Positions 18,601 through 57,913 of a stretch of DNA of 64,000 nucleotides are shown here, one piece after another (the stretch's first letter is position 1; every line of letters begins with the position of its first letter). The stretch covers positions 51,410,354-51,474,353 of the forward strand of contig NC_065536.1 in assembly GCF_932294415.1 (NCBI RefSeq). Reading direction: 5' to 3'. The notes beneath the pieces were generated by a model. That model was not told where the DNA came from and did no database searches. It saw only the letters and a program-made list of their open reading frames with translations. This DNA comes from Quercus robur (taxonomy: Eukaryota; Streptophyta; Magnoliopsida; Fagales; Fagaceae). Position numbers and translations under genes: made by a program.

Positions 18601-20049
18601 CTTGTTTTGTCTGTATAAGCAGTATGCCTATTTAGAGATAGCAAAAGCAAAAATAAGAACATCAACAATGCATAATGTATACAGCCAAATATACAATTGA
18701 AACCCTCAGAAGGGTTTGATGAAGAAAATCTAAGCTAACTATATATATATAATGCATATGGGCCATTTTTGGTTGATTAAGCTCATATATGGACCACATA
18801 CTTAAGAACATGCAAATTAGATGCACCATCTGACATTAAGTTCAAATAGTAGACCAATCCAAATCTAGAGAAGGGTACCTATTCAACTAGTGTGAAAAAT
18901 TAACATATGACCAAGGAGACAAAAAAAAAACCCTTGAATTTAGCATTTGCTCACAGATAAAAGAAATACCCAAGTGCAGGAGTATTTGATATCACCTATC
19001 AATAAGTACCAAACTTGCGAAAAAATTTTATTCTTTTCCGTTTAATTTCTCCCTAATTCTTTTATACAATCATTGAGAAACAAGTGTCCACAAAATAAAA
19101 AGGCATATCACAAAATGTTCTCTAACATGAGAACTCTAAATAAGAGCCCTTTGGACGTGCCTGTAGCTAGTAAAATCTATGAGCAGCTGACCCCCACACG
19201 CCATAACCAGTTTCTAGGTAAATTAATAGGCATATCGCAAAGCGTGCTCTAACACAAGAACTCTAAAGAAGAACCATTTGGACACGCCTCTAGTTTCCAG
19301 GTAAATCAACAGGCATATCACAAAGTGTGCTCTAACATGAGAACTCTAAAGAAGGGCCCTTTGGACGCGCCTCTCGCCAGTAAAACCTACAAGCAGCTGA
19401 CCCCACACACCATAACCAGTTTCCAAGTAATCCCGGTACACTATCGCAAGAACATTAGGTTTTTTTTTTTTTTTTTTTAAATTTTATGAAAACGCTTAAT
19501 TTGAAGGCAATGCCTAGTGATTAAATTCCCTAAAGCATTTTGATAAGAAAATTCACCTATCAAAGTATGTAAATGCAATGTACTTCGAATTCAAGCAGAG
19601 AAAGAGACTGGCACAAAATTAAATTTAAGACAATTTCATAATAATGGTATAAATGCTTGAAATTACGTACCTTAAAGAAAGTGAAATCGATCGGGACCTT
19701 CTTTGTGGATTGAATCGTCGAGAGAGCATCGTCGATCCTATCCGCCTTGATCAAAGCCACAACCTTGCATCGAATCGCATCCTCATCACCTGGTGCCACT
19801 CTTAGAACTGCAAAAAAAACCCCCCAAAAAATAAAGATCAAAATTGAAATTTAATAGGAAAAATAAATTTAGGAATTCGGAGAAGGTGATGAAACCGAGA
19901 AATGGACCTTGATCTGTGACTTTGGCGGCTTGTTCGAACTCGGATCTTTGGATGTGTTTGCTAAGGGAAGCGAAGAGATCTTCGATTGGAGGAGGAGGCT
20001 GTGACGGCGAATGAGAGGGTTTTGGTTTGTCTTTGGGCTTCGGAGCCAT
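15698..20049 (-). CDS. SRP72: Signal recognition particle subunit SRP72, six exons
   Basis: Predicted 673-aa SRP72. With SRP68 it binds the 7S RNA of the cytosolic particle that targets ribosomes making secretory proteins to the ER. Exons in gene order: 19908-20049, 19671-19807, 18275-18627, 17193-17289, 16823-17104, 15698-16708. All introns are GT-AG and the summed length divides by three. The N-terminus is MAPKPKDKPKPSHS with a short proline run. TPR-like helices fill most of the protein (for example SFELAYNTACSLIERNKYTD and LAVAVNNLIALKG). The C-terminus, from about residue 560, has the basic RNA-binding patch KSKKKRKRKPRYPKG followed by the family signature PDPERWLPKRER, then a low-complexity Ser/Lys tail. 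For exon 5 I placed the acceptor at 17104, giving VQQ-LLGHTQEA, because the upstream alternative would add residues not usual in the family. The frame is intact. Confidence 0.93.
19101..19430. repeat. Three tandem copies of a dispersed repeat in an SRP72 intron
   Basis: Copies start at about 19102, 19229 and 19312 with ggcatatc(a/g)caaa. They share gagaactctaaa, ccctttggacg and agcagctgacccc; the middle copy is shorter. A related single copy lies at 47213-47310 in an intron of the oligopeptidase gene. The repeat is non-coding and its family is unknown. It lies in the second SRP72 intron, clear of the splice sites. Confidence 0.65.
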
Positions 20050-20353
20050 TGAATATTGCCGGACGCGAGAGCTTTGATTGTGATTTTCTCGGTTGCCAAA
20101 CAGATGTTAGGAAAAATAATAATTTAAAATGAGTGAGAATTGGATTGAGACGAAGGTTTTGAGTGAGAATATAGATAAGCAGAGATGGCTGCTGGGGTTT
20201 ACGATTTCTTCTCGTTTTCACAGCTTCTACTCTTTTTCCGTTTTTTTTCACTCTTTGCCTTTCTCGGGAAAATGGTAAGCGGGTCGGGACGTAACCGGTT
20301 GACCCGAAGATCCGGGTTAAGCTAGGCCCATCGTTTTGTGAGCTTTGAGTGAT
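20050..20353 (-). promoter_or_regulatory. 5' leader and proximal promoter of SRP72
   Basis: About 300 bp separate the SRP72 start codon from a MITE. The stretch is pyrimidine-rich on the plus strand near 20205-20270 and GC-richer near 20275-20335. It contains gggcccatcg-like text (gctaggcccatcg near 20320-20332); GCCCA motifs of this kind are frequent in promoters of plant translation-related genes. The start site cannot be placed. Open frames here are short and low in complexity. Confidence 0.4.
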
Positions 20354-20640
20354 GGGAAAAATTTGCCAGCATAATTTTAGGAGAATTTTAGGAAAGCAAT
20401 ACACTGATGAAATTATTTTGTAAGTTAGATTGTTTTTAGAACTCGAGTTTGAACCGAAACTCGAGTTTCAATATTGCTGCACACTGCTTGGAACTCGAGT
20501 TTGTTTGTCACTCGAGTTCTAGTCCAAACACAAGTTTATCAAACTTGAGTTCCAAAAACAATCTAACTTATAAAATAATTTCAAATGCATGCTATGCATC
20601 AAATTTTTTTCTAAAAAGCTACTATTCCGCAAATTTTGCC
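20354..20640. mobile_element. Mutator-type MITE with 9-bp target duplication
   Basis: This 287-bp element starts gggaaaaatttgcc and ends gcaaattttgcc. The flanking nine bases ttgagtgat are present on both sides (20345-20353 and 20641-20649), the duplication length typical of Mutator-like elements; three further bases also match. A longer inner inverted repeat of about 42 bp (20410-20451 against 20541-20582) differs at only a few bases. The core carries several copies of aactcgagttt. It has no coding capacity. It lies about 300 bp upstream of the SRP72 start codon. Confidence 0.82.
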
Positions 20641-20649
20641 TTGAGTGAT

Positions 20650-23600
20650 GGGTTAAAAGTTTTTGAGCCGTTGTGAGAACTTAGGTAGAAATGGTCCAAA
20701 TGGACCATGGTCCTCACCCTATTTTGCTCCTAATGAATGAATTTTTTTTTTTTTTTTCCTTTTAATCAGACTAATGAATGTATTTACTCTCAAAGAAAGA
20801 GAGAAAAAAAAATATATTAATACTGCTGCAATTTTTGTGCGTAAGTTTTATATAAGAAAATTTCTAGTATTCCTAGTATTGTTTTGAAAAAAAGAACTAA
20901 AATTATTACAAATTTTACTACAAAGAGCTTTACAAATTGATATGGTGATATGATTGTTGTCGCTTAAACAAAACTATGAAATGAATGTTTTGAATCATTT
21001 CTTTGTGATTAATGACATGTTAATATGTAAATATTATATTGTAATTTTTTTTTCATATCTCTAGCATTGCTCAAAAAAAGTTTGTGGTATTTTTTTGGTG
21101 AAACTACACTATTGGTCCCTGAAGTTTACCCTGTGTGCGCAATTAGTCCCTCAAGTTTGAAGCGAGCACAACAATTAGTCCCTTAAGTTTTAAAACTGAG
21201 TTATATTGGTCCTTTTACTAATTGCTGTTAACGGTGTTACTTACATGACTAACAGAACAATGACTTGACTTTTTTTTTTTTTTTTTTTTAATGATGTGGC
21301 ATGTTTTTAATTAAAAATTTTAAAAAACAGTTTCCACGTTAGATGAAATTGAAAAATCATATTGACTGGATTAAAAACAAATATGATATTTGTTTAACAA
21401 AGGCACGACGGAGAGAGAGAAGGGGAAGCGAGAGATTGACAACCACAAGAAAGAAGGGGACGAAGTGAAGGAAAACCCAAGCCTAGCCACCACCGGTGGA
21501 GACCAAATCCCTAGCCGCACAACAGCACTGCTTCTCTGGCATAACCACTGAACCGCTGCCGCCTCCCTCTGTTGGCGACGGTGGCCTCTTGCCTCCTAGC
21601 AACGCTTCCTTCTTGGCCACTTTTGTGTCTTCGTGCTAGCACAGCCACTGATACCTCGGCATCGCCGCTCCTCCTCCTCTTATTGAAAACCCTCTTAGGT
21701 ATTGCTGATTTTTGTCTTCGTCGATTTGTTGTCATGCTGGGTGGGTGTTCAATGCTTAGGAGCGCTTTTATTTATAAATAATTTTGAATGGATATTTGTA
21801 ACTAAATTCAAAAGATTATGTTTGGTTTATGGTAAAGTTGTGAAGTTTTTGTTTTCTTTAGCATTGTTGATTTGAACCATGTTATAGCCATCTACTTTTG
21901 GTCCTTCTTGAAGTTTCCTTTATAGTATGGGTACATACACCAATGTCAAATTTATTTTCTTGTCTTTGGTTCAACGAAGTTGACTGATTTACCTCACGTG
22001 ATCAACTAAGCTCTGCATATACTTGCTTGAAGCTGAGGAGAATAAATTTAGAAAGACCATTTTATTTAAATATGTTTAAGGTTAACACATTTTCTTTTAG
22101 TGATTCATTGTAGTTGTCTGTGTATTATTATAATTTTTATGTCATAGATTAAGTAATTTACTTTTTTCTAGAGCTGTGGCTAAAACGGTTCCTAGAGCTA
22201 CTCTAATCATTCATTTATTGGTACTTTTGGATCACATGGAAATTAAATCTTTGCATATCAGCAAAAACTGACTACTGGCTATTAGAACTAACAAAAGAAA
22301 TAGAATATGAAAGAAAAGATCATATAGTGAACTAAACTGGTAGGGGTATGTACCATTATATTATTTGCAATCCTTAGAAGCAACATAAATTCGTGTATCC
22401 GTTTGAGATGTCATGGCTGATGGGTACTATTGTAGGACTTATTTATTTATTTTTACATAGATCCAAATAGTTTCTATTTACAGATTTTATATAAGTTCAT
22501 GACAATGCTTATATTGTCTATGTAGGGATGTATATTGAAGGTATATAGGACTGTACTATCATTGGCTTTTTCCTTTTCCCACTTCCCAAAATCAACCTTG
22601 GTGCAAGGTGGACCATAACCAAGCCATATTATCTAGCTTCTTTCCTTGGTGTCAATGAATGTGTCAACTTTCAAGACTATCCTATCAATTTTGGGAAGAT
22701 AAATTCAATTGTGTTTGGTTCCCATGAGATTCTTCAAAAGGGCAGGGCAGACTGTATTAGGTTTTAATTTGCTCTGCATTATCATAATCATGGGGCTTAA
22801 AAGGATAAAGGAAGGATGAAAATTACTTTCCCATTCTACTTTATATTACTTTTTGTGAATATATATTAAAAAAATTACCCCATAACTAAACGACCTTCTC
22901 CTTTGTTTTTATTTATTAATTTGGTGTTTCTTGATTATGTGTGTGTGTGCATGTGCATGAGAGAGAGCTTAACTACTTGTACGTTTGCAAGTCATGCTTT
23001 TTATGAAGATTTGAACTCCCAGTCTTTGATTTGTATAGTGAGTTTTGTCCCTGCTTGTTACCATGACAGTCATGCAATTTGCATCAATTTCTGTACTAGT
23101 GTGATTTTCATGTTGCTCAACCACTGAGACTATCTATTAATGCCAGCTTTAAGCACTAGCTTGTACAGTCAATAAAGCAAATAAGCCAATTCTTTCTAGC
23201 ATTATAATATATTTGCTCTACTAGTGCATTCTATTTGGTTTCCTGCAAATAAGCCAAGTCAATAAAGCAAATAAGTCAATTGTTGACTGCTTTCTATTTG
23301 GTTTCCTCCAATAAAGCAATCTAAACCATTCCAGGGAATAACAATATATTTAAACAATTGATCTAGCCAATTACATAATCTGACAAGGTTTCCAATAAAC
23401 ATCATATTAATTGCACCAATTAACATGTTCAAAATAGTAACATCAAATAAGCTATACTTCAAATAGTAGTAATCCTCAAACTATTTCAAACAATAACAAA
23501 AAAATATCTAAATGTTCTATCCACTTCAAAATACACATTTATCTCCGCAAGCACCTTCACTTCTACACATTTAACCACAAGAAATGTCGTTCACCTTTGC

Positions 23601-23990
23601 CCTTATTCTTATAAAATTTTGTAATTCTTTTTTATGTCTCACTTGCAGCAACCATTGTCTATACTAACACTTCAAAACTATAATTTCTTGTAACTTCATT
23701 AGGTCCAACCTGAACAGTGCACAAGGATATTAATCTACTAGAAACAACAAAGTTAATTTTGTTGAAACATATAAATGTAATAATAATAACCTGAGATGTT
23801 GGTTGACTTCGATGTACTCCTTCACATTGGGTGTTGGTTGACTTTGTGTTGTGACATTTCTTTTCTTAACCTGAAAATCCATTATAGTTTCATTTCAGTA
23901 CATTAACAATAAATTTGTGATTTTTTCATATGAGACTAACAAATATATATATATATGTATTTGCAATCACTTACAAGTATTTTTTGACTA
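20650..23990. other. Intergenic repeats, no gene seen
   Basis: The part near 21095-21235 carries three spaced variants of (ggtccc / agtccc)(t/c)(g/c/t)aagttt, a family of repeat text common in plant genomes but not assignable here. A GC-richer patch at about 21400-21735 contrasts with its AT-rich surroundings and may be a captured gene fragment, but no domain is recognisable. A direct repeat with a period of about 91 bases lies at 23167-23310 (gtcaataaagcaaataag in both units). Open frames are short and unrelated to known families. Confidence 0.45.
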
Positions 23991-23999
23991 TGCTGACTT

Positions 24000-26710
24000 G
24001 CATATGCTTCCTCACTTGTTTGCAGTGGCGGTGTTGCCCTATTAGTAGGTTCTACATGACTTGAAGATGTCCTATGTTCTTGGCTTTCCAAATTGTGTGC
24101 TGTTACATTTGGCTCTCTCACCTATAAATTTTAGGTCACAGCTTAGTAGCACATTATCAACAAGGGAAAAATAAAGAAAAAAAAATCTAACTATTACAAG
24201 CCTTACCTGTAGTTGTTTGCTAGCCTGAGTAGTGGGATTGCACCTTCTCTTGTTATGGCCTACTGTCCCACATTGGCAACATTTAACATGACCGATTCTC
24301 CTCTTCATCTTATATGGATTGTTTAGCTCACCAAGTTCCTTCTTTCTCTTCTTTTTAGGCCTTCCCCCTTGTCTTATTTTTTTAGGAGGGAGTATGGTTT
24401 CTCTGTCACTCCGTGGCCACAACTTAGGACCACTAATAGGGTATATACATGACCCATAAGTCTGGGTTAAGGACTCCATACTATAACAATGATGCACATA
24501 ATCTTCAATTGTGTGACCCATATATCCCAATGTAGCTATAGAATGTGCACAAGGAATCCCAATTAGGTCCCATGATCCACATGCGCATGTACACTACTTT
24601 ATGTCAACTACATACTTATCAGGCAATTTTGATACTTCAAACTTTGATTCATTGCTATCCCCACACCAAACTGGAACCCAATCTGTACTATTAATTTTTT
24701 TCGGTCTCTAACGTGTTCTAGATTCTAGGACATATAGGGCCATGATACCTTGTAATTTTCTCATTCTTCTTAATATAATAAGCCATCAGATGCAATCTAA
24801 TCTTCTCCAACATAGTAATTATTGATTTGTCCCTATTCTCTAATATTTGAGAACTAAAATTTTCACATCCATTGTTGGTTAGTGCATTACACCTGGGATA
24901 CCTTCTAAAAGCTGCTCTTGTCCAAAACCTAGGTTCCTTTCCTACCAACCATTCCCATGCCTTTATGTTTAATTTCTTGATCTTCCCCATTTCAAATTGA
25001 AACTCAAACATGTTAGTGGCCTTAGCAGCTGCCCATATACGATCTTTTAATAGCTTACTTTTATAATCTTTACTAAAATTATTATATAGATGTCGAAACA
25101 CAAAATCAATGGTCCACACCTGGCATGAGCTCATCAAACATTTGTGTTAATCCCTACAACAAAGACATAAAATACAAAATTATTGGATGTATTAGAATAC
25201 AATTAATTTGGTGTGAATTTATAACAAGGTATATCATCCAAATTTAAAGAATAAAATAAAATGAAAGTTTCATTCACCTTTTGTTGGTCAAACATGAAAA
25301 TCCACCCTTCATCCCTTAAACTTCTAATATCATCAAGCAACCTTTTCATGAACCATGTCCATGAGTCCTTTGTTTCTACCTCAACCACGACAAATGCAAT
25401 TGGGTAAACATAATTATTGCCATCCTTGCCAACTGCTATCAAGATCTATCTTGGATACTCACCCTTCAAATGACATCCATCAACACCAATGAAAGGCCTA
25501 CAAGCAGCTAAAAAGCCTTTCTTACAAGCATCCAAACATACATATAATCTCTCAAATTTTGGCTACAAGTGTGGTTGAGGTCTATTGGTAGAGATTAGTA
25601 TAGTACACCCAGAGTTGCTTCTTAACAATTCTTCACAGTAATCGCCCAACCGGGCATATTGTTCTGTAAAAGTTCCATGCACTAATTCTTTAGCCCTACC
25701 TGTTGCTCTAGATGCTTGATACCTACTAATATGAACCTTAAACTTATTTACAACTTGGTCTTTGATAACGGACATCTTCACATTTGGGTCACTCCTCACA
25801 TCATCCACCAGATGCTTCCTAAGCCAATTTGAAGATGCAAATCTATTCTTAAATCGCCTCCCACAATTATGTTCAGGATTCAATTTTTTCACTATCCAAG
25901 TATCTTCATCTTTCATCTTTCATCTTTCTATAATACAACTCAAAATGACATCTATCTGTGCATTTTACTCTTACCCTTACTTTGTCATTTTTTTTTAAAC
26001 TTTACTGGAACCCCTTTGAAAATAGAGTAGAGTTTGATAGCATCCATGACGTCCTTTTTGGTGGCAAACTGCATATCAAGTTCAAAGTGCACCTCAGAGA
26101 AGGATTCTGGTGGATGGTATTAAGGATACCTAGGCCTAGTTTCATCATCAAATGAACTAACCAGACTTGCAGATGTCTCTGACTCCCACTTATCTTCATC
26201 CCTATCAGCTCCAAATGCAACAAGTGCACTTGCACTAGGATTAACCCACTTGCATCAACCCATGTAGGATTAACACCTCTTGCATCAATCCCACTAGGAC
26301 CAACACCACTTGTACCAACCTCATCCTGATTAACATCGCTAGGATCAACCCCACTGCCACCAACCCTACTAGGACTAACCCCACATGCACTAGCCTTTCC
26401 CTTTCTCCCCTCTTTGAGTTTCACTTGCTTATCTTTTCTAAGACACAAGGTCTCATCAAGTAAGCCTTTTACTTTGGAGGCTATTTCACCACTGCTAATA
26501 TACTGTGCAAACATATCATTGTCGTCACTTTCACTGCATCCAAAATGACCTTATGAGCACTATCCTCTTCACTAACAACTCCATCTACTTTATCTCCCTC
26601 ATCAAGATTACCCCCCTCATTATCACCATCTTCCTCATCTCCTTCATTACCAATAGCATTCTCATAATCATCTAAAAACATAACGTACACTTCCACTTCA
26701 TTATAACCCC
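24000..26710 (-). pseudogene. MULE (MuDR) transposase, core and C-terminal part, broken
   Basis: Minus-strand fragments in the order of a MuDR transposase. First comes an acidic linker (26481-26710), then a basic DNA-binding region (CGRRFKNRFASSNWLRKHLV). The DDE core has RPFIGVDGCHLKGEYP and GKDGNNYVYPIAFVVVEVE, and the later core block has FSKDYKSKLLKDRIWAAAK. A SWIM zinc finger (CTCACGSWDLIGIPCAHSIA) and a CCHC knuckle (CCQCGTVGHNKRRC) follow. Stops interrupt it, for example TAG at 25446-25448 after GEYPR and another just before the SWIM finger; a frameshift lies near 25095. The aspartate motif reads FMFDQQK. It is a dead element. Its N-terminal part lies beyond an inserted Harbinger element, at 34703-35006. 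Confidence 0.85.
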
Positions 26711-26832
26711 TAAAAGCATTAGCATTGGTGAATGCTAATGCCAAATCTAAAGGAAATTTAGCATTTTTAACCCCAAAACCATTTGCATCAGAGAATGGTA
26801 AACAGCACTATTGCAAAAATTTTTACAATAGT

Positions 26833-26870
26833 GCTACAGTGCAATTCTAAACATAGAATTGCACTGTAGC
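26833..26870. repeat. Subterminal hairpin of the Harbinger element
   Basis: gctacagtgcaattct and agaattgcactgtagc are exact reverse complements around six bases, and a weaker stem continues outward on both sides to roughly 26810-26895. It lies about 120 bp inside the left end. Subterminal palindromes often bind transposase or ORF1 protein; that role here is an inference. Confidence 0.7.
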
Positions 26871-26999
26871 AAGTATTGTATCAAAAATAATATATTTTAT
26901 GATGTTTTCCCCCTAAAACTTCTCTCTCATCAATACATTCTACACAGGCTCTTCTCTCTTTATTCCTTCTCTGTTTCTCATCTGCTCTCTCATCTCTGA

Positions 27000-27245
27000 A
27001 GCTTCATCTCCGAAATTTCTATGTGACCATCTCCGAAATTTCTGACCCATCTCCATCTCCGAAATTTCTCACCCAATTCACCCTCACCCATCTCCATCAC
27101 TAAAGCTTCACCCTCACCCATTCACCAATTCACCCTCACCCATCTCCATCGCTGAAGCTTCACCTTCACCCATTCACCAATTCACCCTCACCGATTCACC
27201 CTCACCCTCACCCATCTTAACTGATTCACCCTCGCCCATTCTCAA
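27000..27245. repeat. Cysteine-free CT-rich minisatellite upstream of ORF1
   Basis: Units made of cccatctccatc, gaagcttcaccctcaccc and attcaccaattcaccctc recur several times with variable spacing. It lies in the likely leader of the Harbinger ORF1 transcript. The repeats are in DNA outside any recognised frame. Confidence 0.65.
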
Positions 27246-27972
27246 GGGTTTTTGGGTTTGGGTTCAGATTTTGCAAAAACGAAGCTCCGTTGGTGTTGGG
27301 GGATTCAGCTCCGTTGGTGTTGGTGCTGACTGTAAGGTGGGTTTTGATCAATGTATTAGAGTTTTTGTGTTTGTGTTTCTTTTCTCTCTCTGCAAGAAAA
27401 AGAGGGATTCAGCTTGTGTTTGTGTTTGGGTTTTGATAAAAGAATTGTTGTTGATGTTTGTAGAGTTTTTGTTGTTGATTTAGCATCTTCGAGACCGTAA
27501 GCTCGAGTTCATCTTCAGAAAGTTTGCTCAGGTTCATCGTCAATTACTAGTAAGTATCTCTCTCTATCTATTTCTCTCCCTTCTCTCTTTTCTCTTTGTT
27601 TATGTACCCCTCTGTAAAACCGTTCTTTGATAAGCTTTTTTTTTTTTCCTCACAAATCATTCAACAACTCCTCCTTTCTACCAAAATCCCAATTTTATTA
27701 GATAATAGGTGTTCTTGTATTCTATTAATATTTGGCTGTGTACAGGGCTAGTATTTCTGTAACAAAAAATTACTGTAGTATAGTTGAAATATGTTGATTA
27801 GGAGTTGTCAATATATATTGTTTTGATTAGGAGTTGTCAACATATATTGTAGGATGTTGCTATATGTGAGAAGTTGTCACCAAAATATTATGATTAGCTT
27901 ATACTGATTGTAAAGATACAAATAAGAATTGACTTCATACACTAACTATTTTAAGTTCCCTATTTAAAAGGG

Positions 27973-28974
27973 ATGGTTAGGCAAGAAGACTATGACCAAT
28001 ATGGTAATTTCTTACAAGCTGATTCTGATTTTATGGAACCATTTTTAAGTGGGTCTCAAAATCCTTCAATGCCCATCCAGTCTTTACCGGAAGTTGAAAT
28101 TGTCACCTCTAAACGTGGTGGCAACTTCAGTGTAGATGAGGACCTCCTCCTCATCGCTGCATGGCTTAACATTGGCATGAATGCTGTGCATGGTACTGAA
28201 CAAAACGGTGACAAATTTTGGACGAAAATCTGGGAATTTTTTTGCACGAACAATACTTACGAAACCACACATTCTAGTACCTCCCTATCAAGTCAATGGG
28301 GAAATATTAATAGGGAGACAAGTAGGTTTGCTGGGTTCATGGCTAAAGTTGAAGCTCGAAATAAAAGCGGTACAACTAACGAGGACAAGGTATAAATTAT
28401 ATTGCAATGGTGTCACAATATTAATTTGCTTTAAAGTTTCAAGACTCTAATTATTTTATTTTAAAAAAAAAAACTTTAGTTGAAAGAGGCAAAGGAACTA
28501 TATAAAGCTACACCAAATCCAACATCCGGCAAATACATGGCTTTTGCTTATGAACATTGTTGGGTTATGTTGAAGAACCAACCAAAGTGGAGTATGCCTA
28601 AGGAAAGATCAAAAAGGCTCCCTCAAACTCCAAGTTCAATCGATCAAGTTGATAGTAATGATGATGACACAGTGGTACTAGAGAGACCAATTGGTAGAAA
28701 AGCCGAAAAGGCTAAGCGAAAGAGGATAGATGGTGATAAGGGTTTCGATGATTATTTAGCGAAAACATTGCAGTATATTCAAGCATCACATGAACAAGAC
28801 CAAGAGGCTCTTCGCATCAAAGCAGAAAAGCTTCGTCTTAAAACTATTAGGGAGGAGGGAAGAATAATAACCATGGATACAAGTGGCATGAATGACAAAG
28901 AAAGACTTTATTTTGAAAATCTCAAGGATCAAATCCTTGCAAGACAAGTTGGAGTTGACCCAAGGAACATGTAG
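27973..28974 (+). CDS. Harbinger ORF1, SANT/trihelix-type DNA-binding protein
   Basis: Apparently intact 303-aa protein from two exons, 27973-28389 and 28480-28974, with a short GT-AG intron in phase 0. The N-terminal half holds the SANT/trihelix-type fold: GGNFSVDEDLLLIAAWLNIG, then FWTKIWEFF and SLSSQWGNINRE. The C-terminal half is basic and helical, with a KAEKAKRKR patch and a likely coiled coil (HEQDQEALRIKAEKLRLKTI), as in the NAM-associated C-terminal domain. In PIF/Harbinger elements the ORF1 product is needed beside the transposase for nuclear import and binding to the element ends. Host homologues are often misnamed glutathione S-transferase T3-like. No stop or frameshift interrupts it, unlike the transposase of the same element. 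Confidence 0.82.
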
Positions 28975-28979
28975 ATGTC

Positions 28980-30140
28980 TTGTTGTAACCTTATTTTGGT
29001 AGTAAATTATTTTAGGGTTGGGTTTGGCATATGTAGATGCCATTTTGTAAGTAACCTTATTTTGGTAGTGACTTATTTTAAGCGTAGGTTTGGAACATGT
29101 AGGTGATGTATTGGTCCAACTTGATCAATTGGCAGTAGATTGTGCCACTTATGTAATCACATCATTTTTGTTTATATGAAAAACTTATGTATTTTCTATG
29201 TTTGATATCATATCTTCTACCAATTTGTTGTTCCAACTTTAAGTTTGTTTTCAGTTTTATACTTCTGTTTAATTTTTTCTAATAGTTATTTGCCTGCTGG
29301 TATCTGTTTTAAGTCTGTTTAATTCTGTTTTAAGGGTGTTTCTTTGGCTGTTTATGATAGTTAAGTTTGCTAGCTGTTTATGTGGCTGTTTTATTGTTGT
29401 TTGTGTGGCTGTTTGGTGAGATTTAGTAGCCTAGGAAACATTACACAGTGAATTTAGGAATGATTAAAAAATTTAGCTGAAACGTGTTGGGGGTGATGAA
29501 AATATTGTGCAAGTATTTGTTTTTCTACAGCCCCTACAACCATTATATCCATATTTACATATTCAAATTTCTTGCATGAATCATATTTGATATTTCTATC
29601 TATCTATCTATGTAACTTCGCATCTATATTTACAAAATTAGATGTCATCTTTCATCCATCAAAAATTGTAATCAGCATTTTAATTTTGTTTACAAAGACA
29701 ACCCAAACTAGCTTATTTGAAAAAGTGCCCATTTGAGCTTCTCTAAACTTTGTCCTGCATCACAAAAAATTAATATTATATCTGAGTTCACAAGCAGATT
29801 TCTATTGTTTTCCATCATTCCTATGGTCATCATTCAGAGATCAAAATACATGCACATCTGAAGAATTTCTAGCCATCCATATAAATCTGTTTTGAGCTAA
29901 ATTTGTATATTATTCACTCATACATCTTTATGATTCAGTGTCACCAAAAATATGACACTGACACTTAAAATTCCTGAGTATTTTAAAACATCAATTGTTG
30001 ACTGCAATTTAAATAATATGAAACTAGTGATTGATCTGGAGGCCTAAAAAGGAATTGCAAAACAGAGTTCAATATCTTTCACCATTATCTTTTTCAGTTT
30101 CCAAGGATTGGAATGTGATTAAAATAAGGTTACTCTTTCA
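28980..30140. other. Harbinger spacer and inserted DNA, no gene seen
   Basis: The first part (28980-29420) follows ORF1 and contains repeated words: gtaaccttattttggtagt occurs near 28985 and 29050, and variants of ggctgttt(a/t)tgtggctgtt occur near 29345-29415. The latter also occur at 32120-32370, just before the transposase. That suggests the spacer was once continuous and that roughly 29450-32100 was inserted or rearranged later. The part next to 30142 would be the 3' UTR of the captured host exon. Confidence 0.4.
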
Positions 30141-30141
30141 T

Positions 30142-30321
30142 TTAATTACTAATTGAAAAGGCAGCCTTCAACCTTTCACAAAGATGTGGCAGCATCTTGA
30201 TGCCGTCCTGGGTTGATTGATCCACACAGGACTCCAAATCATTTAGTGCACCGGGTTTGTTCTGTTGCTTAGCTGTCTCATACTTATCTTGGCAAACCAT
30301 CAGCGATCTATTCAATTTTTC
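30142..30321 (-). pseudogene. Last exon of a FAM136A/DUF842-type gene, captured in the Harbinger
   Basis: The minus-strand frame EKLNRSLMVCQDKYETAKQQ through NDLESCVDQSTQDGIKMLPH and LCERLKAAFSISN-stop matches the C-terminal half of eukaryotic DUF842 proteins (human FAM136A family). It includes the conserved pair of cysteines spaced as C..DK...C. The exon starts after a proper AG acceptor (30322-30323), so it was copied with its intron rather than from mRNA. The upstream exons, which should encode the CAYECFDR-type motif, are not found to the right. The exon itself is open and ends in a normal stop. It lies inside a transposon, so I call it a gene fragment. FAM136A is an intermembrane-space mitochondrial protein in animals; the plant role is not known to me. 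Confidence 0.75.
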
Positions 30322-31160
30322 CTGCATCCAATAAAATAATATTTGAATAATCTTTATTAGTATTGAGAAATTTCTTCAGCAATGGCTAGGAAAAGAAAAA
30401 TATTTTGTAAACTTAAATACATATAATGACTTAGCGGGCATGCTCATGCCCACACACAAAAACACATACTTATACTCATACATAAAACTTCAGCTTAATA
30501 AGTTCTAATGATGCCGTAAAATCACCAGTGAGCTACACGATCCACACTCGCTGAAACTAACAACCTGCAAGAAGAAAGAAGTGATCTCGCCAAGGGCACC
30601 AGTGTGGTGTTGGCCAAATACCCTCCGATGGTCAAGTTAGAATTGTTCTCAACTCTAGAGTGCTAGAGAGGGTAAATTATGCGTACCTTGATTTGTGAGG
30701 GTATTGGGACTTTTATAGTAGTAGGAGGTTGGCGATCTATTCAATTTTTCCTGCATCCAATAAAATAATATTTGAATAATCTTTATTAGTATTGAGAAAT
30801 TTCTTCAGCAATGGCCAGGAAAAGAAAAATATTTTGTAAACTTAAATACATATAATGACTTAGCGGGCATGCTCATGCCCACACACAAAAACACATACTT
30901 ATACTCATACATAAAACTTCAGCTTAATAAGTTCTAATGATGCCGTAAAATCACTAGTGAGCTACACGATCCACACTCGCTGAAACTAACAACCTGCAAG
31001 AAGAAAGAAGTGATCTCGCCAAGGGCACCAGTGTGGTGTTGGCCAAATACCCTCCGATGGTCAAGTTAGAATTGTTCTCAACTCTAGAGTGCTAGAGAGG
31101 GTAAATTATGCGTACCTTGATTTGTGAGGGTATTGGGGCTTTTATAGTAGTAGGAGGTTG
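30303..31160. repeat. Young tandem duplication, two 429-bp units
   Basis: Units 30303-30731 and 30732-31160 differ at only about three positions that I could see (for example ggctagg against ggccagg). Each starts with the first 19 bases of the captured FAM136A-type exon and runs through intron sequence into LTR-like DNA ending gtaggaggttg. The near identity says the duplication is recent compared with the decay of the transposase next to it, or was corrected by gene conversion. It could also be an assembly artefact. Confidence 0.85.
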
Positions 31161-31440
31161 GCCTCTCTTCCTTGACCTAGAAGTCTTTTCCTTATAGGAC
31201 TCTACTTGAGCAATCCCAAACGTGATGGGCAAACATTTCCTTGTAAAGTGGGTTTTTCATTAAACGCGTATCTTCTAGAATTACCCTTGCACTAGTATTA
31301 CGATCTCCTTTAGGATTCTTTCGGATTTCAAACGCGCGCCACAAGTATTTTAAGTTATGCCAGGCCCTGGGCTCTCCCTTATTGTCAGCCCATGGGCTCG
31401 GATCCGTCAGGCCCAACGTCATGCTATTTTTTACCCCTTC
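30430..31440 (-). mobile_element. LTR-like sequence within the captured intron (fossil)
   Basis: On the minus strand this region carries a TATA-like ctataaaag motif (twice, because of the tandem duplication), GC-richer text such as atggtcaagttagaattgtt on the plus strand, and a promoter-like right part (31161-31440). This resembles a retrotransposon LTR lying antisense to the Harbinger genes. No TG...CA ends with target duplication could be fixed and no coding part is present, so name, ends and age remain uncertain. Confidence 0.35.
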
Positions 31441-32436
31441 AAGTTCAAAAGGGAAAATTAGCAAGGCACACAAATGTTTACAATATATTTTAGAACATTC
31501 CCAAGAAGAAACACCAAATAGCTTAATTATTGTTTGTCTCACACTCGCTTGTAGAATATCTTAAAATGTCTTGGGACAAACTGAATTCTATCCAACAATT
31601 TTTTTTGATAAATAAATTCTATCCAACTATTAACAACTTTCTTTCCATTTCCATGCTTATAGTATTCTTGAACAGTAGTTCAATTTTGAGATTAATATCA
31701 ACAACTCTAGAAGGTAGATGTGATTACATCTTTGTTGTAAAAGGAACCATTAGGCAAGCAAACTAAGACCTCTTATCAATTAACATTCCCTGAAATAGAT
31801 TCCAAGGGTGCGAGACCATTAATACTGCCAGGTTTAAATATGGTGCAACCACTCAATGTCAGGAATTTGCAATGGAGGTAGTACCTATCCATTGTCACCT
31901 GGAGGTAGTACCTATCCATTGCAATTAAGTGGTTCACATAGGTGTCCCTTCCTTAATCCAAAATAAGTGATTATGCTGATTTTCTAATATAATGACCAAT
32001 TTGCTTGTTAATTTTAAACAAAGGTTAATAAGAAATAGATAGATAGAAAATTTGTTCTGCTTGAGTAAATTCAAGCGTATGGAACACTAAGATTGTCCAC
32101 AAAAAGGTGAACAAGAAGTTACTCGTGGCTGTTTAGGTGGCTGTCCACAAAAAGGTAAATTCAAGTGTTTAATGTGGCTGTTTTATGTCTATTTCAGTGG
32201 CAGAATTTGTCAAAATCTGTTATGGGGCTGTTTTAAGTATGTTTTAAGCTATTTAAGTGTGTGTAATTTTTCTTGAAGTTTGTCTATGTGGCTGTTTTAT
32301 GTCTGTTTCAGTGGCAGAATTAGTCAAAATCTGTTATGGGGCTGTTTTAAGTATGTTTTAAGCTATTTAAGTGAGATAATTTCCTGTTCAATAATAATGA
32401 TAAATTCCTAACACTGTTGTCTTCAAGGTTGTCTCT
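31441..32436. other. Harbinger spacer with short duplications, no gene seen
   Basis: AT-rich sequence up to the transposase start. ggaggtagtacctatccatt occurs twice, near 31874 and 31902. A larger direct repeat at 32174-32375 is listed separately. The open frames here have no recognisable domain. Confidence 0.45.
32174..32375. repeat. Direct repeat, period 114 bp
   Basis: The block starting gtggctgttttatgtct recurs at 32174 and 32288, and both copies run on through cagtggcagaatt and tgttatggggctgttttaag. The words match those of 29345-29415, on the other side of the captured gene fragment. Confidence 0.75.
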
Positions 32437-33677
32437 ATGGGTCGCTTTCTTTTTAAAAAGTTGCTTTTTGACGACTCAGACGAGGATGAGATAATGAGGT
32501 GAGTTCTTAAGGGTTCAACTAAACAACGTAAACGTCGTCGGTGTATCGAACTTGATCGTTTGGCAGGTCATAAAAGACTTCTTGACTACTTTTCCGACAC
32601 ACTAGTGTATCCTCCTAATTTATTTCGGAGGAGATTTCAGATGAGTCGGAATCTTTTTCTCCGTATTCAGCATGAGGTAGAGGCATATGAATCTTACTTT
32701 ATCCAAAAAAGAGATAATGCCCAAAAATGAGGTTTATCTTCTCTTCAAAAGATAACAGTTGCACTTAGGATGCTTGCGTATGGAGTTACAGCTGATTTTA
32801 TGGATGAGTATGTGTGGATTGGAGTATCCACTGCAATGAAAAGTCTGAAAAAATTTTGTTAAAGCGGTGGTTGATATTTTCTCCAAGGAATACTTGAGGT
32901 CCCCAAACAACGAAGACATTGCTAGACTTTTAGCCAATGGGGAAAGACGTGGATTTCCAGGGATGCTAGAGAGCATTGATTGCATGCATTGGAAATGGAA
33001 AAATTGTCCGGTTGCATGGAAAGGTCAGTACTCTGGTCACATTCGTGAGCCAACCATTGTTTTGGAAGCAGTAGCATCATTTGATCTTTGGATATGGCAT
33101 GCATTTTTTGGGTTACTTGGATCAAATAATGACATTAATGTATTAGAACGGTCTCCTATATTTTCTGAGCTCGAACAAGGACGTGCTCCTGCAGTTAATT
33201 ACTCAATCAATGGTCATGAGTATACAATGGGATACTACCTTGCCGATGGCATATATCCAAAGTGGTCAACATTCGTTAAAACAATTCCATTTCCACAAGG
33301 ACACAAAAACAAATTATTTGCAAAAGCCTAAGAGGCGAATAGGAAGGATGTAGAGCGTGCATTTGGAGTGCTTCAAGCAAGATTTGTAATTGTGCGTGGA
33401 CCTGCAAGATTTTTCCATAGTGAAATGCTTCAAGACATCATGAAAGCGTGTAATTCTTCATAACATGATCATTGAGGATGAACGAGATGTAAATGAAGTG
33501 GTGGAATTAGATTATGAGTAAATTAATGACAATCCTACTATACAACTGTCACAGGAGAACACAAATACATTTACGGAGTTCATTGAAACCCATCAATGTA
33601 TTCAAGACCATAAAAATCATTTTCAACTCCAATCAGACCTCATTGAGCATTTATGGCAATTACAAGGGGAGTTGTAG
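32437..33677 (+). pseudogene. PIF/Harbinger DDE transposase, decayed
   Basis: This is an ALP1/HARBI1-type nuclease transposase. The start MGRFLFKKLLFDDSDEDEIM, the N-terminal block FRRRFQMSRNLFLRIQHEVE, the first catalytic aspartate in ESIDCMHWKW, the second in LGSNNDINVLERSP and the glutamate in DVERAFGVLQARF are all visible. The C-terminus ends LIEHLWQLQGEL. In-frame stops occur at 32500-32502 and 32728-32730, in the KA-stop-EANRKDVE stretch near 33329, and at 33519-33521; small frameshifts lie near 32860 and 33450. So the gene is full length but dead. Several of the stops fit C-to-T change at a CGA or CAA codon. Confidence 0.88.
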
Positions 33678-33940
33678 GAATTTAGTAAGTGTGTGAGTTA
33701 TGCGTGTGGTGTTTTATTGTAATTTGATATATGTACGAATCTTCTAAAGACAACATTGATAGTTATGTATGTGGATTGCATCTATATATATGTATGTGGA
33801 TTTTTGGCAGGTTGCATGTATATATATGTATGTGGATTTAGGTTGAGTATATTGATATTAAGCAGGTTGCATATGTATATATATATGTATGTGGATTTTT
33901 TAAGTTGGCAGGTTGAGTACATTGATATTTGGCAGGTTGC

Positions 33941-33976
<36 letters not shown>

Positions 33977-34699
33977 GTATGTGGATTTTTAAAATTAGCA
34001 AGTTTGAGTAAATTGATATTTGGCAAGTTCTTTCTATAAAGAAAAATTGGCAGGTTCTATATGTGTGTGTGTGGATCATTAAAGTTGGCAGGTTGAATTT
34101 GACAGGTTCTATATGTGTGTGTGTGGATCAGAAAAATTGGCAGGTTCTATATGTATGTGTATGTATTTGGCAAGTTGTTTGGAATAGTTGTTGAATTTGA
34201 CAAAAAAAAAAAAAAAAGTTTGTTGGAAAGAAATGATAAAGGCCAGGTAAAGATATTTGACAGGTTCTTTAAAAAAAAAAAAAAAAAAAAAAATTGGTAG
34301 GTTGTTTGGAATAGATGTTGAATTTGACAAAAAAATAAATAAAAAAAGTTTGCTGGAAAGAAATTATATAAAGGCCAAGAAAGAAATGTGACCGCTAGAA
34401 TCAAAATCTCAGAATTATACTGTTGAAAAAAATTGGCTGTTGGAACTTGGAAAGCTGAGGAAAGAAATTGACAGTTGGAAAGAAGTGTGACTGTTGGAAA
34501 CTTGGAATCACGCCAAAATCTGAAAAAAAAAAAATTGACAGTTGAAATAAATAATAAAGAAAGTTTAAAAAAAATAATATTTTAATAAAAATAGAAGTTT
34601 GGGATGTAGAGGTATTGTAAAATAGTATGGTATAAATGATAAAGTGATTTTTAGAATAGTAAAATAGAGTAGCATTGCAATTTTCCAATGCTAATGCCC
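33678..34699. repeat. Harbinger 3' spacer with minisatellite and AT repeats
   Basis: From about 33770 to 34160, units of ggcaggtt(g/c) followed by tatatatgtatgtggattt or tatgtgtgtgtgtggatca recur about seven times with variable AT and GT runs. From 34166 to 34385 a segment starting gtttggaatag(t/a)tgttga occurs twice, period about 139. The rest, up to the right inverted end at 34685-34699, is AT-rich. No gene is seen; long frames here are made of the simple repeats. Confidence 0.65.
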
Positions 34700-34702
34700 T
34701 AA

Positions 34703-35006
34703 TACACTTCACCATGTTCATTACATCAACATCATTCTCCAAAGGTTTTAAACCACCTACAAATGGCATAGTAGGCACTCTATACATAAATACATCATTT
34801 TCACCATACCCAAAAATTTTGGCCTTATTCCATATCTCAGCAAGTGACATTTCATTAGAATTATTATCTTCATATATTTTTATCTCCCCTCCTTCATATC
34901 TGTATGGATTATTCCTAATCTTCCCCCAATAGTAAAGGGTGATTGTGAAGTCAAAGTCATCCATCCCTACAACAAGAGCAAGGAATTTAACATTAAGAAT
35001 AGACAT
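34703..35006 (-). pseudogene. MULE (MuDR) transposase, N-terminal PB1-like part
   Basis: The minus-strand frame with MDDFDFTITLYYWGKI and RYEGGEIKIYEDNNSNEMSL, followed by LAEIWNKAKIFGYGEN, is the PB1-like N-terminal domain of plant MuDR transposases. The likely family start is the ATG at 34962-34964; just upstream lies ttgttgtag, a possible splice acceptor. It ends at the Harbinger target site, where KCIR is followed, once the insert is removed, by GYNEVEVYVMFLDD at 26710. The same gene continues in 24000-26710. Confidence 0.85.
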
Positions 35007-36000
35007 AGCAAAGGGATGGATTATTTTTTAAAAGTTACTCTACAATTTCAATATAAATTAAACAATAAAATAAAGAATCATCATTTGAGCTGTAAAGTTA
35101 TTTTTATGTATGCAGGCCATTTTGTTGGACACTTTAAGGGATAAGAATTGATCCAAATTAAATTTTGCGTCCTAAATCCTAATATTCACAACTAGTAATA
35201 CTTAGACAAAACCAAATTAGATTTGCCAAGTTATATAGGTATTACTCGATCAAAACCAACATGTAATATTTTTTTTATTAAATTTAACAAGTACAAATTT
35301 GCCTCACGTGCACAATACATTTATACTCAACACAAAACCTGTGTTAACATTCACAACTAGTAACATTGGGATAATTATACACAGATAACACATTTACACA
35401 ATAAAATTGATTTTGTCAAACAGAAAGTAAAACAAAAGAGAAGAAAAGTAAGAAGTAACGAGAGAAAAAACAGAGAGTTTAGAATGGCAAGCATGTATCA
35501 ATAGGTTGATCTCATTTCTCCCTCAATAGCCCTGCTTTCCATAAAAGGCAAAAGATCTGTATTTCGGCATGGACCATTTAGGCCTGTTCTCTCAAGCAAT
35601 TAATTTCTTCTCTGAGATTATTCGTGTTGAGGGAACGATTTTTCCTTTCTTGATTTCAACCCCATGTATTACTTGACGTGGCAGACTAACGCTTTGATTT
35701 TGCTAACTCTTTTTTTTATCCTTCACTTAGCTTATTCTGTATACAAAGAGCCTTTTGTTACTCACCTTTATTTATTGTGGCTAAAAGTAGTGATTGTATT
35801 TCTTATATCATCTTTATTATATCTGTCTGCCATAACTTACTCACAGCGGTTCTGTCTGCCATGGGTATGTGATTAAACTCTGGCGAACGAGGCATAGTTT
35901 GTGCACAAGCCGGACCAAAGTGAGTTACAATTGGACCGGTTTCGACTTCCTTACTCAGAACATTTGGGCCAAATATCGCAGGAGGCAGCCCAACACTGTA
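35007..36000. other. 5' flank of the MULE, no gene seen
   Basis: AT-rich sequence upstream of the MULE transposase start. It should contain the MULE promoter and right terminal inverted repeat, but I could not match it by eye to the other side near 23000-24000. attcacaactagtaa(t/c)a occurs twice (near 35185 and 35350). Short frames have no recognisable domain. Confidence 0.4.
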
Positions 36001-38430
36001 AAAAAGGCTCACTACAGACTTTATGTAAGATAGATTCGTGCCTTCTAGGAGAAGGACTTTAGTAATAGAAGTTCATGACTTCACGAGAAGAAATTTTAGT
36101 ATAAGTGCTTAATATCTCTTGAGAAGTGTGGAGATAGTAAAATATATAGATGTTTTGTAGGATGTAGTATTTGTAATATGTATGATATATGGAAGTTTGA
36201 GAGATATGGAGGTTAAAGATAGTAAAAATATGAGATTATGGCCTGGTTTGGATAGCGTTGCGTTTCTGCGTTTTCCTTTTTTTTTTTTTTTTTTTTCACG
36301 CGTTTTTCCCACAAGCGGCTACTGTTCATGCAACAGTAGCCGCAACTTTTGACTGGTCAGCTATGAACAGTGCACGGATGCACTGTTCATGGACCCACAA
36401 ATTTCATTTTTTATCAATTTTTTCATTAAAAATGGGTCCCACAGTACTATTCACACATTTAAAAATTATTTTGCTACAGTGTTTTCAGTTTTCAGTTTTC
36501 AGTTTCAGCAAAATAAGTTCTATCCAAACACACCCTATAACTACTGGAGAAGTTGTAGAGATTGTTTTCCAAGAGGAAAGATTTTGTAAGAGAAGAGTAT
36601 GGAGATGTGTTTAGATATTTGGAGATAGGAGTAGTAAGATAGATGTATTTTCTGAATATGGAGAGTGAGTGAATGGAGGGGTAATGGTGTTGTAGTGTGT
36701 TTAGCAAAGCTGTTGAGATTTTCTACTGGAGGATGTATGAGGGCTTATAAAGGGCATTTATGAGCTAAGGGCTGAAGAGTTTGGTTCCTAATTTGGAAAC
36801 TAAAAACTCAGAATTTCATTAAGAGCTTAAGAAGATTATTAGAGGGAGAGAGGAGTTTATGAGAGAGTTCTTCTCTATTTGTGTCCCCTTGAGGTGTTGA
36901 TGAAGGGTTCTATTTATAGTTGAGTTTAAGGGAGTATTTTAGAAAAGAATATGAGCCAAAATCTGTCTCAATTAGCAATAAATTTTCAGTGAATCCATCT
37001 TAAGATTTAGCCAAAAATGGTATGTTTAGCTTTAAGATATTCTTACTATTTTGGGTAAGAGCTGCTAGGGAAAGAGCAGCAAAAAAGGAAAGTAGCAGCA
37101 GAAAAGAAAAGTATTTTGGTAAGAAAAAGATAATTTCTTTAGTTGGTTTTGGTTTTAACCAAATGTGGAAAATCAACAATGCTAAGGCTACTGGGTCAGC
37201 TGTTACATCTATTCTGAAAAAGTTGTCGCAACTATCAGGAAAAGTTGTGACAGCTATCATGAGACAGTTGTCATAGTTGTAATAAGACAGTTGTTGCTTG
37301 GGGCAGAAGCAGATGATGTCAGATGTCAAATGTTGAACATACTGCTGGAGTTATGTTGGAAATGTTTCATTTTTTGGGTGTTTCTATTTTTGGTCCAAGG
37401 TTCTATTACAACACGTTTTTAGTAAGTAATAGAATGATTGGTTGAAAGTTAATGAAGTTTTAGAGATTTAGTCAAGGTTTCATTGTGTTGTGACTTAATC
37501 TTGGTGAGCAAGAAGAGCATTTAATGCTTTGGTCTGACAACTGGCAGAGAAATATTAGGTTTGATTGTGGCAGACAGTAGCTGGATATTAGAGATATCAT
37601 GAATATTATATGTATATGGAGATCAAGGATAGCCAATCAAATTAGACCATGTGTTTGAGTTGAATTTTAGCTGAAAGTAGTAATGTAGTTTATGTAGAAT
37701 AATATAATGAAAATTTTAAATTTGTATAGGAACAGCTGGAGGTTGAATGAATAGCTATTTGTTCAGCATTTAGATGGCTGGAGATATTGAGTATTTGTCA
37801 TATGATGAATATTAAGTTTTAGAAAAAGAGTAATGGAGAATTTTATCATTTTAAGTGCTATGTGATAAGAGATGCTTACCATATGTTACCTACTACACAC
37901 GGACTCGTCAGAGTTCAGAGAGTTGGAGAAGACATGCCAAGTAACATGTTTCTTTTATTAACTTTAAACCACTGGAGCTTTACTAAACATACCTCTTGGC
38001 CCTCCAAACCACGAATTCCAAAGTTTCCCTAAAGAGACTCATGAACTTGGATCATAAGCCGAAGATGAGATGACATACCTTGGGTTTTATTGTCATTTTG
38101 TATGAATATGGGCTTTTGTTGGAGAAGCCTCTTGCCATGAATATGAGAGAGGTAATATGGGCCATGAGTTTCGATTTATTGCTTGAACCCAATTCATATG
38201 TTGATGTTGATGATGTCATGGGTTATGATCCAAATTGATGAAGAGGAAATGTGGACCATGAATCCGCCTTTTGAAGTAATGATCTCATGGGCCATGTGAG
38301 CCCAATCCATGAGATATAAGCTTATTTTGGGTTTTAAATAGATTTATCCAAAAAATCAATAATATGTTGATATGGTATGGGTTGCCAATGGTGTAGTGCC
38401 ATGTGAGGCGAAAAAAAAGTCCTCAAAAAT
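36000..38430 (-). mobile_element. LTR-like non-coding block related to 11052-13887 (fossil)
   Basis: The right part (37860-38425) aligns with 13490-13862: gttacct, cgtcagagttcag, agacatgccaagtaacatg, ttggccctccaaaccacga, and the end gccatgtga followed by tcctca. A TATA-like tataaatag on the minus strand near 36908-36918 suggests a leftward LTR promoter, as in the other copy. A MITE (36240-36535) lies inside. No coding for capsid or polymerase is seen. Ends are uncertain and the copy is old and diverged. Confidence 0.4.
36240..36535. mobile_element. MITE with GTTTGGATAG inverted ends
   Basis: The left end ggcctggtttggatag is matched by the reverse complement of the right end, ctatccaaacacaccc. 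TAT abuts both ends (36237-36239 and 36536-36538), a possible 3-bp target duplication. The interior has palindromic ctactgttcatg / catgaacagt-type words around 36320-36395. It has no coding capacity. It interrupts the LTR-like block, so it is younger than that block. Confidence 0.65.
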
Positions 38431-38569
38431 GGGTATTTAAGCTTGTGGTGGTGTGATGGAGTTAATGTTGAGGCTAAGGCTTTTATGGGTAAAAAGTTAT
38501 TTGTGACTGATTAGGAAACATTTATGGGCTGTGAATATGTAGAAAAAGAAAAGGAATGTCTAAGGCTAA

Positions 38570-39136
38570 GACCTTGTTTGGGGGGAGAGAATGAAATGGA
38601 AAGGCATGAAAAGAATAATTTTAAAATATTCTTTCTTTCCCTTATTTGAGAGTTTTAATGGAGGGAATAGAAAGTTCATTCCCTTATTTGGGAGTTTGAG
38701 TGAGAGGGAATGGAATGGGTAGTAGGAAATACTCATTCCTCTCTATTTCCTTAAAACCTCAAATTTTCATTCTCCTCGAAATTAGGAGGAATGGGAGGGA
38801 ATGAAATTAGATTTAATGAATTTTTTACTAAAACTCCCAAAATACCCCTATATATTTAACCATTTATTTTAAAATAAGGGTCTAATAGTAATATTGTAAT
38901 AAAATGATTTAATTCCATTCATTCCATGTTATTCCCAAACAATATTACTTACATTCTATTCATTTTTAATAATTTTCATACCTTTATTTTAAAACATCAA
39001 ATCAAGATTACTTAATTCCATTCCATTTCATTCATTTCCCTTACTTAAATACATTCTATTCCATTCAATTCCCTTCCCTTCTCTTATGATCATTCAATTC
39101 AATTCCATTTCATTTTCTTATTGAATGTTCAAATAG
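38570..39136. mobile_element. Diverged MITE with CTTGTTTGG-type end
   Basis: The left end ccttgtttggggggagagaa leads into gaatgaaatggaaagg. The right half is its degenerate complement, rich in attccatttcatt words up to about 39118. The two halves can pair over much of their length. The right terminus is diverged and no target duplication was found. Confidence 0.45.
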
Positions 39137-57200: not shown

Positions 57201-57913
57201 CAAGCCTTTTCTCTGGCTGTAAACTGTAAGTGACATCAAAACTCAAAACAAAAAGCCTTTCTTTTCAAGTTCTGTTATCACTTCTCACGTTTCTTCATCT
57301 GGGTTTCTCTTTATTGGAAATCTATCTATGCCCTTTCTTGCTTTTATTTTTATTTGTTTTTTTCATCTTTCATAAGCATTACAGTCTTTCATTTGATTTA
57401 TTTTCTTGCTGAATAATCATGTTCTGATAGGTTTAGCGAAAAGGAAATGGGGTGCATGTTGTGTATTTTCCTTGCTTTTTAAGTGGGAAACACAGACAAG
57501 AAAAAAAGGGGTTTGTGAATTGATTGTGGAAAGTTGGTTGGGGATTTCTTTTTTTGGGTTTATAGTGGCTTTGGGCATCTGGGTTTTTTCAGAATAGTAT
57601 AAAAGTTTGATTTTTTAATTTTTAATTTAATTTAATTTAATTTTTTTTTGTGGTGGGTTTTGATGAAAGTGAGGGATTTTGTAGGTTTTTAATGAGGGCA
57701 TAAAGCTTCATGTGGGTTTTTATGTTGGGTTTTTGAGACTGAGATATAAAGTTTTTTGGTTTTTTACTTTCAGATGAGAAGGGGGTTTTGGCCCCCCTTT
57801 TTGTTCTGGGTTTTCTGGTGTGGCATTATTGTTGGACAGGGTTTGTGAAGGTTTTGGTAAATAAATATTCCGGTTTTTTGGAGGGTGGCGTTTTGTTTTT
57901 ATTTATGTGAACT
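57201..57913 (+). promoter_or_regulatory. 5' leader of the PP2A B' gene with a probable intron
   Basis: A likely first non-coding exon ends near aaact|gtaagt (donor at 57226). A pyrimidine-rich tract then leads to tttactttcag (57763-57773), a good acceptor, about 140 bases before the start codon. A leader intron is common in this family; here it is inferred from splice signals only. Short frames in this span are not called as genes. Confidence 0.4.

Follow-up and report, generated by a model that had tools for sequence, protein, structure and literature searches.

We examined a 64,000-nt stretch of the Quercus robur genome (C3:51410354-51474353, referred to here as the window), in which a Mutator-like element (MULE) is interrupted within its transposase coding sequence by a PIF/Harbinger transposon. 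Searches of the host genome covered 785.7 Mb. A sequence-only reading of positions 24000-35006 had described a 7986-bp PIF/Harbinger element flanked on both sides by TAA, and we recovered the size and both copies of the TAA exactly as it gave them. The terminal inverted repeats (TIRs) of the element in the window are AAGCATTAGCATTGG and GGGCATTAGCATTGG, which match at 13 of 15 bases. Possible end pairs were compared at every offset over a 40 x 40 grid (26690-26729 against 34690-34729), with direct repeats of 2, 3, 4, 5, 6, 8, 9 and 10 bp considered. Only the pair 26714/34699 combined a direct repeat 3 bp or longer with 11 or more terminal matches out of 15; two pairs with 2-bp repeats, both lying inside the TIRs, scored 12 and 13 of 15. 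Pairs of 40-bp segments were also drawn at random from the window, and none of 4,000 such pairs yielded TAA or TTA together with an end match of at least 13/15. Once the Harbinger and one TAA are taken out, the minus strand is open for 185 codons, reading ...NMVKCIRGYNEVEVYVMFLDD (the junction being also read as ...KCIRGYNEVEVYVMFLDD).

The joined 555-nt empty-site sequence was used as a query against the host genome, the counts of places obtained in this way being lower bounds. At least 27 places were found: the two halves in the window, which overlap by their common junction bases, 14 copies that cross the junction, and 11 partial matches that stop short of the junction or do not cross it. 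All 14 crossing copies (L002-L015) are free of gaps at the junction. The target triplet on the minus strand is TTA in 13 of these and CTA in the remaining one (L007), and the copies are 90.4-96.2% identical to the window MULE over 521-800 aligned columns (88-96% in the genome search itself). Frames of at least 100 codons, located by a start-motif search, were present in nine of the crossing copies, the other five not being found by the motif. Each of the nine frames continues through the junction, with the peptide KCIRGYNE in seven copies, KCTRGYNE in L007 and KCIKGYNE in L012. Frames of 562 or 566 codons pass through the junction in six relatives (L002, L004, L006, L010, L011 and L012), and given these the MULE family may have been active recently. 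The prediction that removal of the element joins the MULE in frame (KCIR...) is thus borne out both by the 185-codon stretch and by the gap-free genomic copies, and MULE homologues that read across 34703 and 26710, which had been expected in the host genome, are represented by 14 uninterrupted paralogous copies in this one genome. Among the partial matches, six (L018, L019, L020, L021, L023 and L024) end at query base 193 of 555, well before the junction, and perhaps form a deleted or divergent MULE subgroup.

The gap-free copies could also be sites from which a Harbinger had excised precisely with one TAA, and not pre-insertion sequence. Excision of PIF/Harbinger elements is usually precise according to PMC2836001, so that an excised site would be indistinguishable from an empty one. 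This origin nevertheless presupposes that each of the 14 crossing copies (88-96% identical in the genome search), or else an ancestor common to them, once held a Harbinger. Of the at least 27 places, none but the window pair is interrupted at the junction, the 11 partial matches being uninformative in this respect; we regard such an origin as very improbable. A negligible probability is given to the idea that the ends, the TAA and the frame agree by coincidence or through an assembly join. We found no supporting evidence for it, and it is opposed by the random pairs, none of which matched as well, by the presence of the joined sequence 14 times with substitutions but no gap, and by the definition of the Harbinger family termini independently of the window. 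Chance pairing of the ends and the TAA was ruled out by the grid, the random pairs and the junction-crossing MULE copies.

The family termini were determined from the right ends of 20 Harbinger relatives, of which 10 had long and 10 short matches. The 15-bp TIR GAGCATTAGCATTGG is exact in 17 of them; L069 and L088 each show a single change and L076 shows two. TAA or TTA follows the TIR in 18 of the 20. Left ends were examined in four of the five full-length relatives, picked after their right ends showed TAA or TTA. All four have an exact TIR at the left end, and the same triplet occurs on both sides of each element (TAA/TAA in two, TTA/TTA in two). These data fix the boundaries of the Harbinger independently of the MULE reading frame, and support the earlier statement that they are set to the base. 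Each window TIR carries one change from GAGCATTAGCATTGG, which accounts for the 13/15 match between them. The boundaries, the target duplication and the empty sequence are all demonstrated, as is the order of the two insertions. Many other relatives share only the right approximately 130-200 bp of the element (best 40 of 945 candidates scored), as would be expected of shortened derivatives. The two ends of the Harbinger (26714-26741 and 34672-34699) are also small palindromes, the left one consisting of an 11-base arm that recurs in inverted form 4 bases on (DNA fold z -4.36). In the 20 relatives, the right-end palindrome pairs at 10 or 11 of 11 positions in 10 elements and at 8 of 11 in the other 10, most of which have one second form.

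Table 1. Features of the window; positions are counted from its first base.
Feature	Position	Strand	Basis or remark
PIF/Harbinger element	26714..34699	+	7,986 bp; TIR and target duplication, Pfam matches, relatives
TAA target site duplication, left copy	26711..26713	.	Grid of ends and repeats
TAA target site duplication, right copy	34700..34702	.	Grid of ends and repeats
Harbinger left TIR, AAGCATTAGCATTGG	26714..26728	+	One change from family form GAGCATTAGCATTGG
Harbinger right TIR, GGGCATTAGCATTGG	34685..34699	-	One change from family form GAGCATTAGCATTGG
Harbinger open reading frame 1 (ORF1), two open exons (to ~28395, from 28480)	27973..28974	+	Start and intron by eye
Harbinger DDE transposase gene, disrupted by stops and changes of frame	32437..33521	+	Ends by eye
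Copy of FAM136A-like host gene segment	29423..31921	-	29423-30505 and 31441-31904, then templated repeat to 31921
Solo long terminal repeat (LTR), 508 bp, inside captured segment	30934..31441	.	Target duplication of 5-6 bp, (A)AGTTC, by eye
429-bp tandem duplication (30303-30731 / 30732-31160)	30303..31160	.	426/429 columns identical
MULE 3' terminal inverted repeat (GGTGAAACTACACTATTGGTCCC... from 21097)	21097..21320	-	Match at opposite end in relatives
MULE transposase, 3' coding part, decayed (acidic linker, MULE domain, SWIM zinc finger)	24072..26713	-	Pfam, L002 alignment
MULE transposase, 5' coding part (MDDFDF... to KCI), severed by Harbinger	34703..34964	-	Start codon by L002 alignment
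MULE 5' leader	34965..35428	-	Homology of relatives stops at ~35421-35428
SRP72 gene	15698-16738	-	PF08492, E=9.8e-18
PP2A B56 regulatory subunit gene	57911-59281	+	PF01603, E=1.6e-150

The guest element had been called a PIF/Harbinger, and its Pfam matches, TIR and TAA agree with that name. The transposase gene matches PF04827 (Plant_tran) at E=5e-74 in 32849-33331 (248.8 bits against a cut-off of 22), and ORF1 matches PF14303 (NAM-associated) at E=9.8e-18 in 28480-28974. The upstream part of ORF1 (27955-28395) gave no Pfam match, and hence no Myb domain was seen in it; a PDB search with the transposase piece returned nothing at E 0.001. A search for relatives of the transposase (best 40 of 230 candidates scored) gave 27 besides the window at 87% identity or higher, the best at 96%. 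Assignment to the Harbinger superfamily is supported by the DDE transposase, the ORF1, the TAA/TTA duplication and a TIR within the range of 14-25 bp.

The host element belongs to the MULE superfamily. A SWIM zinc finger (PF04434, E=4.3e-5) was detected in the window MULE, and the MULE domain (PF10551) scored above its cut-off in all three relatives scanned (E=1.9e-9 to 5.5e-9). The sequence-only reading had described a PB1-like domain followed by an acidic linker in the MULE transposase. Its superfamily assignment stood; the PB1-like label was not confirmed, as the N-terminal part of the MULE gave no Pfam match to PB1 and no PDB relative, and a structure model of it was unusable (mean predicted local distance difference test score, pLDDT, of 37.6). 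The ends of the MULE are visible only with relatives: an inverted-repeat search in the window alone gave poly-A/T matches at the top and weak ones for the rest. The 3' inverted repeat recurs in inverted orientation at the opposite end in five of the six relatives with flanks, the one at C4:85.48 Mb having none. In the related MULE L068 the inverted repeats align over 202 bp at 86.6% and are bordered by a perfect duplication of 9 bp, TAAATCTTT, as judged from the sequence of its ends.

We also compared the window MULE with the open frame of L002, from 26713 down to approximately 25271. The window copy has four frameshifting indels (1, 1, 1 and 7 nt, at 26548, 26247, 25996 and 25931). Stops number at most five, two adjacent ones beside the 7-nt insertion possibly being alignment effects. 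From the start codon at 34964, the frame is free of stops and frameshifts through the junction and for 165 nt after it. The break nearest the junction, a 1-nt deletion 165 nt from it, is private to the window, the base being kept in all 14 other copies. The MULE had been described as still open when the Harbinger struck. That description holds over this first part of the frame. The four indels and up to five stops lie beyond it and could predate or postdate the Harbinger; openness at the time of insertion is consistent with the data and supported only locally. Both transposase genes, that of the MULE and that of the Harbinger, are now broken in the window copy.

Between ORF1 and the transposase gene, antisense to both, the Harbinger carries a total of 1.54 kb of captured sequence, in two pieces that match a single uninterrupted donor stretch (C39:5616490-5618033) at 98.2% and 97.0% identity. 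The captured last exon, at approximately 30160-30330, matches DUF842 (PF05811, E=4.3e-11), and the donor stretch holds the last exon of an apparent three-exon gene (frames judged by eye). We take this DUF842-bearing gene to be FAM136A-like. A 21-bp repeat of captured sequence, GGAGGTAGTACCTATCCATTG, occurs at 31874 and 31901, where it marks the right joint, and only once in the donor; such a repeat looks like the product of template-switching repair. Captured and donor sequences differ at 31 of 1,547 aligned letters, with 2 further gap columns, and 16 of the 31 differences are C-to-T or G-to-A towards the window copy, with 3 in the reverse direction (tallied by eye). Apart from the window and the donor, the first captured piece (29423-30504) turned up only on C2, as a partial match of 414 nt; the search with the second piece covered part of it, among the matches listed. 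The match on C2 (C2:84393617-84394031) is 97% identical to the start of the captured segment, and no Harbinger match is listed near it.

The same flanks were compared in the five closest full-length Harbingers among the matches listed, where they enclose approximately 2.25, 2.24, 1.40, 3.37 and 4.54 kb (C4:2090413-2092663, C39:14813157-14815401, C5:13012971-13014375, C3:60668640-60672007 and C5:85537987-85542522, respectively). The first captured piece has no match in any of these five interiors. Since the flanks enclose 1.4-4.5 kb in relatives that lack a match to this piece, the interior of the window copy was apparently replaced and not merely added to. If the five interiors turn out to derive from different host segments, the Harbinger family exchanges its cargo at one place. 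We think it unlikely that this lineage has a recurrent cargo site between its two genes; more likely, a spacer that was ancestral and variable in length was replaced a single time in the window copy. The solo LTR within the captured segment has many related LTRs that are paired approximately 9-11 kb apart (among the matches listed), and the 429-bp tandem duplication spans the joint between gene and LTR.

That the MULE came first and the Harbinger second, as the sequence-only reading had it, is established by the split MULE, the end-to-end Harbinger and the empty MULE sister copies. The reverse order, with a MULE inserted into a Harbinger, was rejected because it is the MULE that is split and the Harbinger that runs from end to end. 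Nesting gives the order MULE, Harbinger, LTR and duplication. The capture precedes the LTR, and may have taken place before or after the arrival of the Harbinger at this locus. Window-private substitutions in the MULE number 12 in 731 columns (those in which at least eight other copies have a base), compared with 0 to 13 in six relatives. Taken together, the divergences of the MULE, the captured segment and the duplication would fit the sequence MULE before capture before duplication, the differences being too few and too rate-dependent for dates.

We hold it as almost certain that the MULE was in place first, that the Harbinger then entered its transposase gene by cut-and-paste, at a TAA within the first coding part, and that the replacement of the Harbinger interior, the LTR and the duplication make up the rest of the history. 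Insertion of the Harbinger, which duplicated the TAA, presumably took place by the usual mechanism that employs ORF1 together with the transposase. The Harbinger sequence between ORF1 and the transposase gene would have been replaced by a copy of the FAM136A-like segment, probably through template-switching repair of a break. An LTR element subsequently inserted into the captured copy and was left as a solo LTR, with the 429-bp tandem duplication arising afterwards. A potential concern is whether the Harbinger-in-MULE composite formed elsewhere and arrived here as a unit carried by the MULE. The MULE family has indeed been mobile, its nearest relative among the matches listed being 96% identical, but no other insert-bearing MULE copy is among these matches, and the window MULE, with no detected 5' inverted repeat, is immobile in its present form, though the repeat could have been lost later. 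We consider transport as a composite improbable.

Several observations weigh against local insertion of the Harbinger into a previously resident MULE. The confirmation comes from paralogous empty sites in one genome and not from an orthologous empty allele. Each window TIR departs from GAGCATTAGCATTGG at a single base, and the right-end triplets of two of the 20 Harbinger relatives are neither TAA nor TTA (TGA in L069, TTT in L076). The match of the window piece to the MULE domain falls just below the cut-off (E=4.6e-6, 27.4 bits against 27.6), and the MuDR domain (PF03108) in three relatives reaches 22.6-23.7 bits, below the Pfam cut-off of 25. The MULE 5' inverted repeat was not found in the window when this was searched with the 5' parts of three relatives, so that the MULE's own 9-bp duplication is unreadable. 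With its 3' repeat starting at 21097 and its 5' homology ending at approximately 35421-35428, the MULE exceeds 24000-35006, and with no 5' repeat found it appears truncated.

As regards the surroundings, the 5' end of the SRP72 gene lies near 20100 (by eye), approximately 1 kb from the MULE 3' end, such that the nested elements are upstream of SRP72. The PP2A B56 gene lies in the right-hand part of the window. Searches for tRNA and Rfam families (whole window; 20000-40000) gave no match.

Tourist-type elements are related to PIF/Harbinger. Os0548, a 274-bp Tourist-like miniature inverted-repeat transposable element (MITE), is present in intact or partial form in 107 rice coding-MULEs, with one insertion thought to be ancestral, and nested elements that directly disrupt MULE transposases number 46 in maize and 23 in rice (PMC3903597). 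The Os0548 case resembles ours in that a Tourist-type element lies within transposase-bearing MULEs; it differs in being a short MITE shared by 107 similar elements, whereas here a single 8-kb coding-type Harbinger disrupts one transposase copy. The PIF/Harbinger elements of Medicago (PMC2213677) are similar in the presence of ORF1 and transposase in some members, the TIRs of 14-25 bp, the TAA/TTA duplications, the nested insertions and the MITE relatives. In the Medicago cases considered the Harbinger is host to nested elements, whereas in the window it is both guest and host, and the Medicago motif G(N)5GTT is absent from the TIR GAGCATTAGCATTGG. For the MULE, a PB1 domain ahead of a MULE-type transposase is known from the domesticated MUSTANG-B genes (PMC3435246), the arrangement that had been named for the window MULE, in which the PB1 label is unconfirmed; MUSTANG-B genes are host genes under purifying selection, and the window MULE is by contrast a decayed mobile copy.

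The gene capture has its closest parallel in the grapevine Pifvine-3 PIF elements, which carry transduplicated host sequence with exons and introns (PMC2528002). The two cases share long PIF elements, host exon and intron sequence, and target duplications that are mostly TAA or TTA. The Pifvine-3 cargo occupies a long 5' region and is sometimes common to several copies, whereas that of the window sits between the two Harbinger genes, its first piece having been found in no other Harbinger copy. Two-protein transposition and precise excision have been described for PIF/Harbinger (PMC2836001), as have TIR and target features (PMC4565680), and Pack-TYPE elements are treated in PMC8903248. Our literature searches, which were not aimed at the source species, found no published report of this exact locus. 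Since nested insertions and gene capture by PIF elements have already been published (PMC3903597, PMC2528002, PMC2213677), both parts of the structure are of known kinds, and the nested insertion is unusually well resolved but ordinary in kind. An insertion resolved to the base, with many preserved pre-insertion sequences, can serve as a worked example or as a check for transposon annotation, and the captured FAM136A-like segment, whose donor is known, provides a small case of how PIF/Harbinger elements acquire host DNA.

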